Shown in pieces: positions 794 through 34,588 of a stretch of 34,588 nt of DNA. Made by a program: the position numbers and the translations under genes. Source of the stretch: Clostridia bacterium (lineage in GTDB: Bacteria; Bacillota; Clostridia; Oscillospirales; Acutalibacteraceae). A model generated the notes under the pieces. The model ran no database searches. It was not told where the DNA came from and saw only the letters and a list, made by a program, of their open reading frames with translations. The stretch spans positions 1 through 34,588 of the forward strand of contig JAFURT010000019.1 in NCBI GenBank assembly GCA_017471765.1, in the 5' to 3' direction. Position 1 is the first letter of the stretch. Each line of letters starts with the position of its first letter.

Positions 794-833
794 CAAAGAA
801 AAACACCACCTAATCAGGTGGTGTTTTTCTTTG
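794..833 (-). terminator. Hairpin terminator downstream of the GNAT gene
   Basis: A perfect 18-bp inverted repeat (794-811 and 816-833) with a 4-base loop and an A/T-rich outer stem could work in both directions. On the minus strand it lies behind the acetyltransferase gene, separated from it by the 51-bp repeat element. The stretch 679-793 between the two terminators contains no convincing gene. Confidence 0.8.
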
Positions 834-881
834 GGAGTTTTGAACTTAATGACACGAATGAAATTGTGCCTGAAAACTGAG
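831..881. repeat. 51-bp 3'-end element, copy A
   Basis: This segment matches 1621-1670 in 51 aligned columns with three substitutions and one single-base indel. Its core GACACGAATGAAATTGTGCC is itself an imperfect palindrome. It sits between the GNAT stop codon and the gene's terminator hairpin, as copy B does for the next gene. Confidence 0.8.
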
Positions 882-884
882 GAT

Positions 885-1445
885 TTATTTATTAATTTTC
901 CACTCACTTCTTAAAATACCGTAGTCTGCTATATCAACAAATTTACCTGTTGAGGTTTTAAAATATTCTCGTTTAGTTCCCTCGTAAGTCATACCACATT
1001 TTTGAGCGACCTTACCCGAACCAGGATTTTCAACAGCATGAGATATGCCCACACGATTAACACCTATTTCAGAAAACAGATAATCAATAACTGCTTTTGC
1101 TGCCTCTGACATAAATCCTTTATTCCAATAAGAATAACCCAAACAATAACCAAGTTCAGCATATTCGCACTTATCACTGATTCGAACAACACTTATTGAA
1201 CCAATTGCTTTTTCGTCAAATTGAATAACCCAATTATATGTTTTTATATTGTCATATGCTCCAACCCAACCCTCTAATAATTGCCTTGTCGCATCTGCTG
1301 ATTCGTGTGGTTGCCAAGTCAAAAAACGAGTTACTTTTTGATCGTTTGCCCAGTTAAAAAACATATCATTAGCATCATCAACCGTAAATCTGCGTAAAAC
1401 TAATCTATCAGTATATAAATTTTGTGTGCCTTTGTGTGTTAGCAT
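885..1445 (-). CDS. GNAT family N-acetyltransferase (RimJ/RimL type)
   Basis: The protein has 186 residues, normal for the Acetyltransf_3 group that acetylates N-terminal or small amino groups using acetyl-CoA. The N-terminal TDRLVLRRFTVDDANDMF is the family signature. A middle block resembles the acetyl-CoA binding region (ELGYCLGYSYWNKGFMSEA), and AVENPGSGKVAQKCGM matches the usual N.aS..v..K.Gm motif near the C-terminus. The start has GGTGA about 7 bases upstream and an extended -10 promoter at 1468-1496. The gene is clearly AT-rich compared with the GC-rich core genes, stands alone with its own promoter and terminator, and looks acquired. The substrate is unknown; GNAT proteins on such cassettes sometimes give antibiotic or toxin resistance, but nothing here shows that. 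Confidence 0.88.
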   Translation of the reverse strand: MLTHKGTQNLYTDRLVLRRFTVDDANDMFFNWANDQKVTRFLTWQPHESADATRQLLEGWVGAYDNIKTYNWVIQFDEKAIGSISVVRISDKCEYAELGYCLGYSYWNKGFMSEAAKAVIDYLFSEIGVNRVGISHAVENPGSGKVAQKCGMTYEGTKREYFKTSTGKFVDIADYGILRSEWKINK

Positions 1446-1467: not shown

Positions 1468-1496
1468 ATTATAGCATAAAAGCGACGGTGGCGCAA
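1468..1496 (-). promoter_or_regulatory. Promoter of the GNAT gene
   Basis: Minus strand: -35 TTGCGC (1491-1496), 17-bp spacer, -10 TATAAT (1468-1473) with TATGC before it (extended -10). The sequence CTTTTATGCTATAATA also occurs in the promoter of the 1684-2064 gene. Confidence 0.8.
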
Positions 1497-1500
1497 TACT

Positions 1501-1624
1501 TCTTCACTATTCACTATTACTTCTTACTTTCCAAAAATCCCGTTCAAAAATTTTTTAGTGAAAAGTGAAGAGTGAATAGGTAATAAGTAAAAATCCCGCC
1601 CACTTTCGTGAACGGGATTTTTGG
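1501..1624. repeat. Composite inverted repeat between two AT-rich genes
   Basis: CCAAAAATCCCGTTC (1531-1545) is a perfect inverted repeat of 1610-1624. The block 1501-1530 (CACTATTACTTCTTACTT) is roughly mirrored by 1560-1588. A similar TTCACTATT...TACTTCTTACTT string recurs at 12836-12864 in an unrelated gap, so this is a dispersed repeat family. Confidence 0.7.
1589..1622 (-). terminator. Terminator of the small AT-rich gene
   Basis: AAAAATCCCG (1589-1598) pairs with CGGGATTTTT (1613-1622) around an inner CAC/GTG pair. On the minus strand it follows the 1684-2064 gene and copy B of the 51-bp element and ends in a T run. Confidence 0.75.
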
Positions 1625-1670
1625 GTGTTTTGAACTTAGTGACACGAATGAAATGTGCCTGAAAACCGAG
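1621..1670. repeat. 51-bp 3'-end element, copy B
   Basis: This second copy of the element at 831-881 has the same orientation and the same position, between the stop codon of a minus-strand AT-rich gene and its terminator. A weaker relative (AATGTGCCTaAAA core) lies at 31741-31775 behind the small membrane protein gene. Confidence 0.8.
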
Positions 1671-1683
1671 AAAACAATAAGAT

Positions 1684-2064
1684 TTATAACACAACTTTTT
1701 TGTGCGGTATGTTTTGTTCAACTTTTTCAAAAAACTTTCTACCCTTACTGTCAACCGACCAAAAAGCGATATACTTAGTTTCACCCGAAGAAGATGTATA
1801 AGTAATAACCGAAAACCATTTTACTGCATTCGTTTCTGAGGTGTTTACAGGATTGTTATGATATTTGCCCATAAAATTCGTCTCAGGCATATAATCAATG
1901 TTGTTGATTTGATTATATGATAATCTAATATCCGTTGTATCGTTTTTGAATAAAACATTTTCATCTTCTATAAATGCTTTACAAGGAAAATCTTGCTTAA
2001 ACCCTATAAGTCCTTCATAATGCATTAAAACAACTTCATTTATATCCTTTTTCTTAAAAAACAT
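1684..2064 (-). CDS. Small protein of unknown function
   Basis: I do not recognise the family. The protein has 126 residues, starts MFFKKKDINEV and has no signal peptide or membrane segment. It is rich in alternating beta-type stretches (FIEDENVLFKND, IRLSYNQINNIDYM, WFSVITYTSS), which would fit a PH-like or GRAM-like fold; that is only inference. The ATG at 2064 is chosen over the upstream ATG at 2136 because it has AAGGA at the right spacing (2073-2077) and because a strong promoter, with its -10 at 2098-2103, lies between the two. The gene is AT-rich, sits between the hairpin array and copy B of the 51-bp element, and shares promoter style with the neighbouring GNAT gene. Confidence 0.7.
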   Translation of the reverse strand: MFFKKKDINEVVLMHYEGLIGFKQDFPCKAFIEDENVLFKNDTTDIRLSYNQINNIDYMPETNFMGKYHNNPVNTSETNAVKWFSVITYTSSSGETKYIAFWSVDSKGRKFFEKVEQNIPHKKVVL

Positions 2065-2097: not shown

Positions 2098-2126
2098 ATT
2101 ATAGCATAAAAGCGGATATAAATCAA
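2098..2126 (-). promoter_or_regulatory. Promoter at the edge of hairpin array 1
   Basis: Minus strand: -35 TTGATT (2121-2126), 17-bp spacer, -10 TATAAT (2098-2103) with TATGC extension. The -35 overlaps the first hairpin of the array (2124-2138), so a cruciform there would affect promoter access. Confidence 0.8.
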
Positions 2127-2312
2127 TGCGAAGCATTGTATATCATCAATTCCGTAAGGAATTGCATATCATCGACTTCGTAAGAAGTTGTATATCATCA
2201 AGCCGACGGTTTTTTATGCACACCTAAAGGTGTGATGAGATACAAATGCGACTTGTCGCATTTGATGATATACACGCTATTGCGTGATGATATACCAAGC
2301 CTGTCGGCTTGG
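2124..2312. repeat. Hairpin array 1 (eight stem units with flipped linkers)
   Basis: Units: CAATGC/GCATTG (2124-2138), CAATTCC/GGAATTG (2147-2164), CGACTTC/GAAGTTG with one wobble (2173-2190), a lone half unit CAAGCCGACGG (2199-2209), CACACCT/AGGTGTG (2219-2234), AAATGCGAC/GTCGCATTT (2244-2263), CACGC/GCGTG (2273-2286) and CCAAGCC/GGCTTGG (2295-2312). Linkers on the left read TATATCATC; those on the right read GATGATATAC, the reverse complement, so the array is a quasi-palindrome that flips around 2210-2218. The half unit pairs with CTGTCGGCTTG at 2301-2311 with one mismatch. The tRNA-Asn terminator lies directly to the right. Confidence 0.85.
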
Positions 2313-2315
2313 ATA

Positions 2316-2349
2316 AAAAAACACTCGTTCTTTTGAACGAGTGTTTTTT
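2316..2349 (-). terminator. Terminator of the tRNA/5S operon
   Basis: AAAAAACACTCGTTC (2316-2330), loop TTTT and GAACGAGTGTTTTTT (2335-2349). On the minus strand the stem begins right at the CCA end of tRNA-Asn and closes with a T run. Confidence 0.9.
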
Positions 2350-32091: not shown

Positions 32092-32440
32092 TTTGCATTC
32101 TCCTTTGCGGTTCTGCAGGATGCGATCAAGAGTCTGCGAATATTCCCACAGAGTTTTTCTGCATACTGATATTGGGCGATATCTATTCTTTTGGTTTCAT
32201 ACATTAATTCGAGCCAATAGCTGGTTTCGTTAGATTCCTTCAAAGCGATTTCCAGTTTTGCTACAAAATCTTTCTTACTCTGTGCGTACTGTGCTTCGTG
32301 AATATTGGCTCCAACGGATGTACCTGCTCTTGCAAGCTGATGGTCATATAAGAGCTTTTCGGTGCAGTTACACCGTCAACAAGATTAACAATAGCAACCG
32401 CAAATTCAAAAGATAAGTCAAGTAATTTGTTTTCGGACAT
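32088..32440 (-). pseudogene. S23/Avd-like four-helix-bundle protein, frameshifted
   Basis: The start at ATG 32440 has AAGAAGGTG upstream and a consensus promoter. The first frame gives MSENKLLDLSFEFAVAIVNLVDG, the usual N-terminus of the TIGR02436 four-helix-bundle family. Around 32365-32380 (TGTAACTGCACCGAAAAGC) the match jumps to another frame, which continues EKLLYDHQLARAGTSVGANI, then AQYAQSKKDFVAKLEIALKE and SYWLELMYETKRIDIAQYQY, to the stop at 32088-32090. A single-base change explains both halves; a sequencing error or programmed shift is not excluded. Relatives include the S23 protein of 23S rRNA intervening sequences and the Avd subunit of diversity-generating retroelements, both RNA binding. 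No reverse transcriptase is present here. Confidence 0.82.
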
Positions 32441-32462: not shown

Positions 32463-32491
32463 ATTATATCATAAAATGTTATGTTTTTCAA
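32463..32491 (-). promoter_or_regulatory. Promoter at the edge of hairpin array 2
   Basis: Minus strand: -35 TTGAAA (32486-32491), 17-bp spacer, consensus -10 TATAAT (32463-32468). The -35 is 5 bases from the last hairpin of the array, the same arrangement as at 2098-2138. Confidence 0.85.
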
Positions 32492-32495
32492 TGAT

Positions 32496-32656
32496 ATATC
32501 GCTGGCGCGATATGATATACGGCTTGCGCCGCATGATATATTTGCGTTGCAAATATGATATAATATCCGTTCCTTCATATGCCGAAGGCATATATCATCC
32601 ACCGAAGGTGGATATCATATCGAAGATATATCACCCGTTCCGACAGGAACGGATAT
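32496..32656. repeat. Hairpin array 2 (eight stem units with flipped linkers)
   Basis: Units: ATATCGC/GCGATAT (32496-32513), CGGC/GCCG (32520-32531), ATATTTGC/GCAAATAT (32538-32556), lone half unit ATATCCGTTCC (32563-32573), ATATGCC/GGCATAT (32577-32593), TCCACC/GGTGGA (32598-32612), ATATC/GATAT (32617-32629) and CCGTTCC/GGAACGG (32635-32652). Left linkers read TGATATA and right ones TATATCA, the reverse of array 1. The half unit is perfectly complementary over 11 bases to GGAACGGATAT (32646-32656), part of the outermost hairpin. A tRNA terminator follows at once. Confidence 0.85.
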
Positions 32657-32660
32657 CATT

Positions 32661-32702
32661 GAAAAAAGTCACCTTTGTCAGTAGACAAAAGTGACTTTTT
32701 TC
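32661..32702 (-). terminator. Terminator behind the tRNA-Ser fragment
   Basis: GAAAAAAGTCACcTTTGTC, 4-base loop, GACAAAAGTGACTTTTTTC (about 32661-32702). On the minus strand it starts just after the tRNA CCA end and closes with a T run. Confidence 0.88.
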
Positions 32703-32703
32703 T

Positions 32704-32765
32704 TGGCGGAGAGTTAGGGATTCGAACCCTAGGTGAGTTTCCCCACACAGCATTTCGAGTCCGCA
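32704..32765 (-). pseudogene. 3' half of tRNA-Ser (CGA)
   Basis: The minus strand reads anticodon loop CTCGAAA (anticodon CGA), 3' anticodon arm TGCTG, a long serine-type variable arm (GTGGGGAAACTCAC, 32732-32750), T-arm GGGTTCGAATCCC and an acceptor end with CCA at 32704. Upstream of the anticodon loop the sequence (CTGCGGA) no longer pairs with TGCTG, and there is no D-arm or 5' acceptor strand. The gene is cut in the anticodon loop, the usual crossover position of tyrosine integrases. An intact copy is expected at the far end of the element. Confidence 0.85.
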
Positions 32766-32771
32766 GTGCAA
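32745..32771. other. Attachment-site-like junction, copy 1
   Basis: Minus strand CTGCGGACTCGAAAT at the break point of tRNA-Ser. It shares CTGCGGAYTCGAAAT with 32998-33017. Confidence 0.65.
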
Positions 32772-32856
32772 AATGGAAGTCAACAGAAAAAATCGGACTT
32801 TAACGCACTTTATTTACCTACTCCGCAAAATTGCCGAACAGCAACCGTTCTCTACT

Positions 32857-32885
32857 ATTATAACCTCTATTCGAACTCTTTACAA
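32857..32885 (-). promoter_or_regulatory. Possible promoter facing the tRNA-Ser fragment
   Basis: Minus strand: -35 TTGTAA (32880-32885), 17-bp spacer, -10 TATAAT (32857-32862). It points towards the tRNA fragment and array 2; whether it is active is not known. Confidence 0.5.
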
Positions 32886-32994
32886 GACCCGATTTTTCAA
32901 GAGAAATGGTGGAGAGAAAGCCGATAACCACAAGTCGAACCGTTGCAAAAAGCCTTATATATCAAGGGTTTTCGGCGGTTGTGCTCCAATGTCG

Positions 32995-33020
32995 CAAGCG
33001 GATTTCGAATCCGCAGAGTA
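32995..33020. other. Attachment-site-like palindrome, copy 2
   Basis: GCGGATTTCGAATCCGC is a perfect anticodon-arm-like palindrome (stem GCGGA/TCCGC, loop with CGA on the minus strand). It repeats the core of copy 1 in the same orientation about 250 bases away. The sequences to the right of both copies are loosely alike (GGAAGTC...AGAAA), as if two element ends were stacked. No gene is seen between them. Confidence 0.55.
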
Positions 33021-33185
33021 AATTTGAAGATATGGGAAGTCGGGAGAAAGTAAAAGCAGATAGCAGCAAATGATATTCGTTGTAAAATCAATGGTTTCCA
33101 AGGCTAAAACCGAAAAAAGCCTTGAAAAATGGGTCGATTTGAACCCACGAAAATCGGGGTGTTTGGAGGTCGTTTTTCAGCCAAA

Positions 33186-33245
33186 ACGAGAGAAAATGGA
33201 GAGAAAAATACCCCGTTGGAGAGAAAAATGGAGAGAAAAAAAGAG
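33186..33245. repeat. GGAGAGAAAA direct repeats
   Basis: Four copies of GAGAGAAAA in one orientation (starting near 33188, 33199, 33219 and 33231), plus a GGAGAGAAAG near 32911. Short direct repeats next to an attachment site are typical arm-type sites for integrase or excisionase. Confidence 0.65.
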
Positions 33246-33339
33246 AGATAATAACCGCATAAATACTGCGGTTTTCGACACTACGAAGTTTAGCAAATGG
33301 CTATGCCGTTGACCAATCATTACATAATGAGGTGTAGCT

Positions 33340-33918
33340 ATGGAACAGATAACCATTGAATTTTTGAGAACTACATATCCCGAAGAAATCACCAAGGATC
33401 AGTTTTATAGGATATGTCACATCAGCAAAAAAACCGCATCGTATCTTTTGGAAAGCGGTATCGTCCCCTGCCGGAACAGCGGCAAGAAAACACGGAAATA
33501 TAAAATCCTTCTTACAGACGTTATCCATTACCTTAAACAACGGGAACTTGACCCCTTGATTTTTAAGGCACCCGAAAATTATTACAAGAACGGGTACGGT
33601 GAACGCCCCCTCGGATTACGGGCGGTGAAGCTATCAGAGGTTCGCAAAGACCACCTACGGGATGTATTTGCAAAGCAAATCTCTCGTTATGATGATGTAA
33701 TCACTCCCGATGAGGTTGCGGAAATCCTTGGATACACCACCAAGACGGTTGCCGAATGGTGCTTAAAGGGCGAACTAAAGTCTTTCCTAATATACAATAG
33801 GTGTAAAATTCCGAAGGAGTATCTGCTTGACTTTATGATCTCGGAGCGTTGCTTGATGATTGTACGCAAGTCGGCAAAGCACAAACAGATGCTTGAGGAT
33901 GCTCTAAAAAAAGTATAG
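33340..33918 (+). CDS. Two-HTH excisionase-like DNA-binding protein
   Basis: 192 residues. Two segments have the MerR/excisionase-type winged helix pattern: residues about 20-65 (ITKDQFYRICHISKKTASYLLESG...RKYKILLTDVIHYL) and about 125-168 (ITPDEVAEILGYTTKTVAEWCLKGELKSF...IPKEYLLDFM). The second is the clearer one. Such proteins direct excision or regulate integrative elements. GAGGTG precedes the ATG. The gene is AT-rich and sits about 95 bases from the GGAGAGAAAA repeats, its likely targets. No integrase gene is in the window; it may be at the other end. Confidence 0.75.
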   Translation: MEQITIEFLRTTYPEEITKDQFYRICHISKKTASYLLESGIVPCRNSGKKTRKYKILLTDVIHYLKQRELDPLIFKAPENYYKNGYGERPLGLRAVKLSEVRKDHLRDVFAKQISRYDDVITPDEVAEILGYTTKTVAEWCLKGELKSFLIYNRCKIPKEYLLDFMISERCLMIVRKSAKHKQMLEDALKKV

Positions 33919-33995
33919 TGCGAATGTCAAATTTGCACATTGGAGCTTTAAGAGCGATTTTGCTACACTATTATTGAAAGGAAGGTGCAAAAGCA

Positions 33996-34286
33996 TTGAA
34001 AAACTTTATAGAAGAATTTTACTACGGCAATATTGAGCCGCAGGGACGAAGCAAAAAGCAAAGTCCAGCCGCCAAAAAGGAGTTTGACCTATTAACGAAG
34101 AACGAGGAACTGCTGACACAGGCACTTACCGACGAAAACAAGAAACTGTTTCTTGACTATGTAAATGCTTGGGGTGTTGTGAACGGCGAGTCCACCGCCG
34201 ATAGCTTTGCAGTTGGTTTTCGTTTAGGAGCTGCCTTTGTGTACGACACCTTTGTAGCAGGTTCAATCCCTACATACGACAAGTAA
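33996..34286 (+). CDS. DUF6809 family protein
   Basis: 96 residues, cytoplasmic and helical. MKNFIEEFYYGNIEPQGRS and the later FLDYVNAWGVVNGESTADSFAVGFRLGA match DUF6809, a small family common on integrative conjugative elements and prophages of gut Firmicutes; function unknown. It starts with TTG 33996, 8 bases after AAGGAAGGTG; no ATG suits better. It is followed 11 bases later by another small gene. Confidence 0.8.
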   Translation: MKNFIEEFYYGNIEPQGRSKKQSPAAKKEFDLLTKNEELLTQALTDENKKLFLDYVNAWGVVNGESTADSFAVGFRLGAAFVYDTFVAGSIPTYDK

Positions 34287-34297
34287 AGGAGCAGAGT

Positions 34298-34465
34298 ATG
34301 AAAAACAAGCGATATATGTATTTAGATAGCGTACAACACAGCACCTTGCTCCGCTGCCTTGTGGAGTTTAAGAACGACCTTGTTCGTCAAGGCAGAACCG
34401 CCGATATAGTGGACGAGGTAATCCTTAAAGTGATGAACGCTCCCGTAAAAAAGTTAAGAGTATGA
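34298..34465 (+). CDS. Small protein of the integrative element
   Basis: 55 residues (MKNKRYMYLDSVQHSTLLRC ... to VKKLRV). AAAGGAGCAG lies just before the ATG and the DUF6809 gene ends 11 bases upstream, so the two form an operon. The LLRCLVEFKNDLVRQGR...DIVDEVILKVMNA pattern is often seen in short proteins beside DUF6809 on mobile elements. No function known. Terminator 16 bases after the stop. Confidence 0.75.
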   Translation: MKNKRYMYLDSVQHSTLLRCLVEFKNDLVRQGRTADIVDEVILKVMNAPVKKLRV

Positions 34466-34480
34466 CCTACATAACCGCAC

Positions 34481-34513
34481 AGCCGCTTATTCCAAAAGAA
34501 TAGGCGGCTTTTT
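34481..34513 (+). terminator. Terminator of the DUF6809 operon
   Basis: AGCCGCTTATTC (34481-34492), loop CAAAA, GAATAGGCGGCT (34498-34509), then T residues. Confidence 0.9.
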
Positions 34514-34578
34514 CTATTCCCCTACATAGCCGATCATTCGCCGTGGTCGGCTAAATCTGTGTAAAGGAGGACACGCAA

Positions 34579-34588
34579 ATGGCGAAAA
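34579..34588 (+). CDS. Start of the next gene (cut by the window end)
   Basis: AAAGGAGG lies 8 bases before an ATG at 34579 (ATG GCG AAA A). The first codons read M-A-K. Nothing can be said of the product. Confidence 0.6.

Follow-up and report, generated by a model that had tools for sequence, protein, structure and literature searches.

A hairpin array at the CCA end of a tRNA gene as the putative front region of a small mobile cassette related to S23 elements

The hairpin array near the right end of the window, by which is meant the whole 34,588-nucleotide stretch analysed here (Clostridia bacterium assembly GCA_017471765.1, contig JAFURT010000019.1), is on balance probably the front (cis) region of a small mobile cassette at a tRNA CCA end and a tRNA-end variant of the S23 element. 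The original prediction, made from the letters alone, had described this array (array 2) and a similar one about 30 kb away (array 1) as two cases of a recurring element, perhaps mobile and targeted to the 3' side of tRNA terminators. Beyond that prediction, half of the array is the Rfam family Gut-1 and the adjoining gene is an S23/IVP gene. In addition, the inverted linkers between the hairpins are similar to the inverted 7-bp repeats found on either side of S23 genes across the phylum. The features are collected in Table 1.

Table 1. Features of the two array loci in the window, given in window coordinates
Feature	Position	Strand	Basis
Array 2, seven hairpins and a lone half unit	32,496-32,661	minus (tRNA to gene direction)	sequence
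3' half of tRNA-Ser(CGA) with CCA end, abutted by the unit	32704..~32764	-	sequence; isotype is the authors' reading
H0, terminator-like palindrome, 19-nt arms, 95% complementary	32661..32702	-	inverted-repeat search
A domain: H1 32635-32652, H2 32617-32629, H3 32597-32613; TGATAT-type linkers	32597..32652	-	sequence and Gut-1 model
Hairpin H4	32577..32593	-	sequence
Lone half unit, pairing with the H1 arm (32645-32656) over 12 bp	32563..32574	-	inverted-repeat search
B domain: H5 32538-32556, H6 32520-32531, H7 32496-32513; inverted linkers	32496..32556	-	sequence
Promoter: TTGAAA (32,486-32,491), 17-bp spacer, TATAAT (32,463-32,468)	32463..32491	-	sequence
S23/23S_rRNA_IVP four-helix-bundle gene, frameshifted; start codon 32438-32440, left limit approximate	32098..32440	-	PF05635 32124-32366, E 9.1e-20
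H0 of array 1, directly after tRNA-Asn (2349-2424)	2313..2349	-	ARAGORN, sequence
Array 1, plan of array 2, different stems, opposite linker polarity	2116..2320	-	sequence, array finder
Array 1 cargo gene, 126 aa, no Pfam family	1684..2064	-	translation, Pfam
R motif (right-end motif) 3' of the array 1 cargo gene	1620..1671	-	sequence
Front end of next unit: terminator followed by 7-bp repeats in two opposed sets without intervening hairpins	1490..1619	-	sequence
Second cargo gene, GNAT acetyltransferase	885..1445	-	PF13302, E 3.6e-36
R motif 3' of the second cargo gene	830..881	-	sequence

A structural array finder, which requires hairpins and a linker inverted at mid-array and nothing else, recovers exactly two arrays from the window, at 2,124-2,349 and 32,496-32,689. 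As had been described, each consists of seven hairpins and a half unit, the TGATATA linkers switch orientation at mid-array, the stems of the two arrays are unrelated, and the linker polarity relative to the tRNA is reversed between them; the -35 box of the gene promoter of array 2 also coincides with the array end. The half unit pairs with the outermost hairpin as claimed, over 12 bp rather than 11. A terminator hairpin is present on the tRNA side as well, next to the 3' half of a tRNA, and this hairpin (H0) is probably the element's own rather than a terminator of the tRNA; ARAGORN called no tRNA behind array 2. TGATATA occurs 14 times in the window compared with 1.94 expected, a count reached in 0 of 100 shuffles, and the folding z-scores of array 2 are -5.9 and -7.6 on its two strands. 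In the region beyond the array (32704-34588), the tRNA-Ser(CGA) looks cut at the anticodon and an HTH_17 protein is encoded at 33340-33918; given these two observations, another integrated element may lie there.

Array 1, located behind tRNA-Asn with a half unit of 9 bp, opens a tandem series in the order tRNA-Asn, array 1, gene, R motif, heptamer spacer, GNAT gene and R motif. Cargo promoters at 1450-1490 of the window and in three other loci (L208, L163 and L216) have a common CACCGCTTTTATGCTATAATACAC...GGCGGTGAT-like sequence, in which CACCGC and GGCGGTG form an inverted repeat that is perhaps a common operator.

The covariance model of Gut-1 (RF01706) matches the A half of array 2 (32587-32661) with 64.8 bits against a cut-off of 50, and a second, opposed match of 34.7 bits, under the cut-off, lies at 32474-32544 on the plus strand. 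The genome from which the window comes holds 17 Gut-1 matches, 14 of which form seven opposed pairs, two halves per element. Whereas the Rfam entry holds a single half and is typed as sRNA, the array has two opposed halves, and the Gut-1 RNA is one half of the symmetric array element. Gut-1 matches were found in 34 of 60 genomes (the own genome and 59 relatives), above the cut-off in 27 and with up to 48 matches per genome; 14 control genomes gave one match, in E. coli, below the cut-off. The family is described as known only from the human gut in the available text of PMC2864571, and a search of the open-access literature for 'Gut-1 RNA' gave no match. The array finder returned 136 matches in 285 loci, 99 of them unique, and none in 418,552 bases of shuffled versions of 120 sequences, in agreement with the prediction of a real, recurring element. 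The linkers observed include TGATAT, TGAAAT, GTGATAT, ATGTAATC, ATGATGT, GTGAAGT, GTTATAT and AACATC. A scan of viral contigs with the A-end pattern gave 0, and a distant blastn search of the plasmid collection with the array region gave no match. Several contigs of the own genome (C11, C13, C16, C19, C31, C32, C33 and C35 of G000) end in or near arrays, and array copy numbers are therefore probably undercounted.

The rule that a half unit pairs with the end hairpin holds beyond the window. In 92 of the 99 arrays, an arm of the end hairpin pairs over 8-16 nt, mostly 11, with a remote segment that has no partner nearby, the distance between them being mostly 80-86 nt. A pairing of 9 nt or more is reached by 90 of 92 block pairs within one array, a figure that is partly due to selection, compared with 493 of 5318 for blocks of different families and 6 of 460 for shuffled ones. 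A single word of one family makes up 42 of the 92 pairs, and at least 6 of the pairs chosen by the program (L004 at 722, L041, L049, L146, L156 at 2068 and L277 at 11610) are not pairs of H1 and half unit. Distinct paired words number 37, so that the pairing is conserved while its sequence differs between families. The arrays were oriented by which arm has a local partner, the half unit alone having proved ambiguous. In an alignment of 13 array 2 relatives that counts the window's array among them, 97.6% of the cells at hairpin positions are paired (one row, G025, was miscut and misses the first 17 columns), and double changes number 39 compared with 11.0 in shuffles, none of 500 shuffles reaching that number. 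The long-range stem of this family is 12 bp long, is kept in 96.6% and varies little, so that it shows little covariation. On the tRNA-sense strand G-T mismatches exceed A-C mismatches, 18:6 and 22:11, among 44 distinct of 49 complete family sequences; these sequences are related, and the excess gives a mere hint that the structure may act on that strand.

These properties bear on the reading of the array as a stand-alone noncoding RNA, Gut-1 itself, in which the hairpins would be a transcribed structured RNA and the tRNA neighbourhood would result from cotranscription. The Gut-1 match above the cut-off and the strong covariation would be expected of such an RNA, which could also tolerate G-T pairs on the tRNA-sense strand. 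However, the Gut-1 model covers only half of a symmetric element, and most matches in the own genome come in opposed pairs. Moreover, a terminator before the array and a promoter after it imply that the neighbouring transcripts should exclude it, and both linker and stem sequences vary freely among families, so that this reading is an unlikely one.

The linkage of the cassette to tRNA ends was counted in one family gathered from the species-genome collection by the exact A-end pattern. The 99 stretches obtained have titles of metagenome-assembled genomes or uncultured bacteria named Clostridia, Clostridiales, Oscillospiraceae, Eubacterium, Ruminococcus or bacterium, and their stated source is nearly always the ruminant or deer gut. 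These 99 loci contain 105 elements, of which 9 lie too close to a contig end, leaving 96 with 110 bp upstream. An intact tRNA or tmRNA precedes 55 of the 96 elements, CCA and an A-run precede 26, and 15 have neither. Of these 26, 17 keep at least 16 nt of a tRNA 3' end. Not every array is thus at a tRNA end, the other 24 of the 96 elements being without a recognisable one; several of the latter follow the right end of another unit. In a null set of CCA and A-run sites, 22 of 911 reach 16 nt of a tRNA 3' end, and 16 of these 22 are near-whole tRNA ends. A tRNA or tmRNA within 150 bp upstream lies on the same strand in 39 of 80 oriented arrays and on the opposite strand in 0 of 80, and within 150 bp after the far end one is found in 0 of 80; this count dropped 7 of 99 arrays of unclear orientation and 12 of 92 with less than 250 bp upstream. 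The predicted targeting accordingly stands as a link to tRNA 3' ends in fixed orientation, with the correction that the junction is the tRNA CCA and that the terminator seems to travel with the array.

Two side observations concern copies of tRNA ends. In L209, L203, L156 and L069, reading by eye shows two copies of the tRNA 3' end, one inverted and one direct and separated by a spacer, downstream of both the tRNA and the terminator of that tRNA. At L088 2286-5818, a full tRNA-Arg(CCT) and another 3' half of it enclose an array and two genes, one membrane-protein-like and one sigma-70-type, and no integrase was recognised among the ORFs listed there.

Given its place at tRNA 3' ends and 3' fragments, the array could also be the arm-site or attachment region of integrative elements that enter tRNA 3' ends by means of a tyrosine recombinase, the 7-mers being arm sites of an integrase. 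The two tRNA-Arg 3' ends about 2.9 kb apart and the repetition of 7-mers at a 21-22 bp spacing in one half of array 2 would suit this arrangement. Against it, arm sites need no palindromes with compensatory change, and reading the units by eye brought up no recognisable integrase. Only three matches to the tyrosine recombinase family (PF00589) are present in the own genome (78.6% complete), and the fetched array loci have none. An integrase origin of the array thus has a low probability.

The extent of the proposed cassette was deduced from its ends. Among 85 elements, H0 was parsed in 82 and both ends in 16, and 80 of the 99 pattern loci were used for comparing H0 recurrence. The H0 stems fall into 19 kinds among 74 (8 of the 82 gave no stem), the commonest occurring 22 times, and the same few H0 sequences turn up after a wide range of tRNAs. 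No two of the 16 sequences parsed beyond the far end are alike, and two of the 16 are the H0 of the unit that comes next. Since H0 recurs while the far-end sequences differ, it is H0 that most likely belongs to the unit, and the terminator beyond the far end would be that of the target. Units were seen in two forms, one consisting of an array and a right-end segment and the other of an array, a promoter, a cargo gene and a right-end motif. The cargo genes encode GNAT, NUDIX, Zn-ribbon, sigma-70-type and four-helix-bundle proteins and, by our reading of translations, probably HAD and membrane proteins. The R motif occurs in 7 of 40 genomes, and a reversed control pattern in none. Integron cassettes are likewise short, each with a single small gene that varies and a motif at its right end, and stand in tandem at an anchor. 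The array unit differs from them in being anchored at a tRNA 3' end and in having a promoter and an array, and none of the three PF00589 matches of the own genome lies in a fetched array locus. Its right-end motif, read by eye, seems to depart from the box order of attC, the boxes pointing the wrong way, and its identification with attC was dropped.

Mobility had been suggested as a possibility. One tRNA-Arg(CCT) gene, whose neighbour we read as ParB-like, is followed by an array of the array 1 type in the own genome and by a different array and linker, an H0 known from other genera and a HAD-like gene in a congener (G008). In seven other congeners (G009, G006, G007, G002, G001, G004 and G005) no array was seen within 330 bp after this tRNA. 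The array finder agreed on these seven but also missed the G008 array, and the contig of G003 yielded no tRNA at this locus. The closest comparison is that with G009, G006 and G007, because the other four have a different tRNA-Arg(CCT) sequence. Presence and absence at one orthologous tRNA among congeneric species support the suggested mobility, although a comparison between species is no proof of transposition, and no empty site was found at the level of strains; to judge from its distribution, the array would be mobile. REP and BIME elements are extragenic palindromes arranged in head-to-head groups, the REP/RAYT kind combining a conserved palindrome and tetranucleotide tag with a RAYT transposase. 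They differ from the array in that its stems, by eye, differ among themselves, the linkers and the pairing being conserved instead of a palindrome sequence. That the array is an immobile insulator or terminator block of this kind, selected at tRNA ends, is improbable, since its constant position between terminator and promoter in the loci read is outweighed by presence, absence and replacement at one tRNA, by the recurrence of one H0 and array at many tRNAs and past the right ends of other units, and by the link to S23.

The S23 link rests on several comparisons. An intact S23 gene stands behind another array of the own genome (L142 630-977, PF05635 E 5e-26), and its protein matches PDB 2rld (E 9.4e-23). 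Among 60 genomes, 25 have both Gut-1 and PF05635, 9 Gut-1 alone, 5 PF05635 alone and 21 neither, giving p 6e-5 for co-occurrence without correction for kinship. Repeats were sought around 60 S23 loci, one best-scoring locus per genome, 30 from the order (drawn from 76 matches) and 30 from the phylum. Repeated words or 7-bp repeats precede 24 of the 30 order-level and 16 of the 30 phylum-level genes, compared with 5 of 59 control ORFs taken from these loci; by the same test 14 of the 30 phylum-level genes lack them. Strict runs of period 7 precede 19 of the 60 S23 genes and 2 of 59 control ORFs, and runs at periods 5, 6, 8, 9 and 10 precede 0 of 60. A linker score of 5 is reached by 15 of 28 S23 genes and, in these array-rich loci, by 151 of 1200 windows placed at random. 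In the phylum set the repeats come back in inverted form behind the stop codon: of 29 S23 genes (one of the 30, with an N run, was omitted), 16 reach a flank-matching score that is attained by none of 32 other ORFs and by 16 of 841 mismatched pairs. The order-level loci read mostly have no inverted copy after the S23 stop, L121 and L122 being exceptions, and in the window both halves of the inverted repeat precede the S23 gene and none flanks its far side. Intermediate forms, in which heptamers face inverted heptamers without hairpins, occur before S23 genes and at ~1,490-1,619 in the window. By eye, L301, L304 and L294 have gene-less heptamers facing inverted heptamers that adjoin full S23 genes, and L301 has an apparent remnant of the start of an S23 gene, as in internally deleted elements.

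S23 genes also lie inside structured RNA genes. One is placed inside 23S rRNA by cmscan in L302, and by eye also in L308, L313 and L314. In L311 (1229-2003), cmscan matches the RNase P RNA model over its full length across 775 nt, and this RNA gene contains an S23 gene flanked by inverted heptamers. Nearly identical S23 copies, flanks included, occur three times in G115, twice in G174 and twice in G239; these sets are read as rRNA-operon copies because their flanks are near-identical and alike across genomes, and element ends were not obtainable by comparing them.

The intervening sequences (IVSs) of 23S rRNA with an S23p/IVP ORF, described in the available text of PMC4990558 from Leptospira, Coxiella and others, share the PF05635 protein with the array unit and resemble it in heptamers before the ORF, inverted repeats and insertion at structured RNA genes. 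In Coxiella, three GACAGAT heptamers precede the S23 frame, and the same text reports that S23 proteins have no known function, that the origin of IVSs is unclear, that earlier authors proposed IVSs to be mobile and that an S23 protein of Xanthomonas forms a ring of five four-helix bundles (PMC4990558). 23S_rRNA_IVP is also named in 16S and 23S rRNA insertions of CPR bacteria in the text available from PMC11270868. The array unit, unlike these, lies at tRNA or tmRNA 3' ends and not inside rRNA, has both halves of the repeat before the gene with hairpins between the repeats, and has its own terminator and promoter, other cargo and tandem arrangement. We judge array 2 to be a variant related to S23 intervening sequences and do not file it as one, because two of the tested features were found and two, rRNA location and repeats on both sides, were not. 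In the titles and the beginnings of abstracts in the open-access literature, we found neither a link of S23 genes with heptamers beyond Coxiella nor a description of hairpin cassettes at tRNA ends.

Several observations weigh against the cassette. No transposase, circle or strain-level empty site was found; many cassettes lack S23, and 9 of the 34 genomes with Gut-1 have no PF05635 match. The S23 gene in the window is frameshifted, with repeats upstream only, a quarter of the counted elements (24 of 96) are off tRNA ends, and some half-unit pairs are off target. The lack of the A-end pattern in viral contigs, the scarcity of PF00589 matches in the own genome, the near-constant long-range stem of the array 2 family and the phylum-level S23 genes without repeats count on the same side.

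The cassette would be a unit in the order H0 terminator, hairpin array, promoter, one or more cargo genes and right-end motif, inserted where a tRNA gene ends in CCA; insertion may spare the tRNA because H0 would end the tRNA transcript. The array may derive from the inverted heptamer repeats that flank S23 genes of 23S rRNA IVSs, the linkers being S23-element repeats, set in two opposed halves and since separated by hairpins. The half unit would let the outer arm pair across half the array, and hairpins and half unit together would give a folded two-domain structure on either strand. S23 would be the ancestral cargo, a putative linker-binding protein acting on the folded DNA or RNA during movement or processing, and cassettes with GNAT, NUDIX, Zn-ribbon or other genes would be derivatives moved in trans. 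The anatomy and recurrence of the array, its orientation and link to tRNA ends, the half-unit pairing with its covariation, the association with S23 genes and heptamers and the presence or absence among species are observations, whereas actual transposition, the membership of H0 in the unit, S23 as the binder and the ancestry from S23 elements are our deductions. A bolder and rather doubtful extension is a distinct cassette system of gut Clostridia, in which units with a standard terminator, a head-to-head hairpin array, a standard promoter and cargo would travel in folded form, as RNA or single-stranded DNA. S23 pentamers on the heptamer linkers would guide them into the CCA ends of tRNAs and into tRNA-like right ends of units already in place, building tandem arrays at tRNA loci without a conventional integrase.

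The association of S23 with inverted heptamers across the phylum, with RNase P RNA, with tRNA 3' ends and with Gut-1 arrays provides defined sequences for tests of binding, processing and movement. An RNA family of Rfam would be recast as half of a DNA cassette, and such cassettes may be a source of small accessory genes in gut bacteria.
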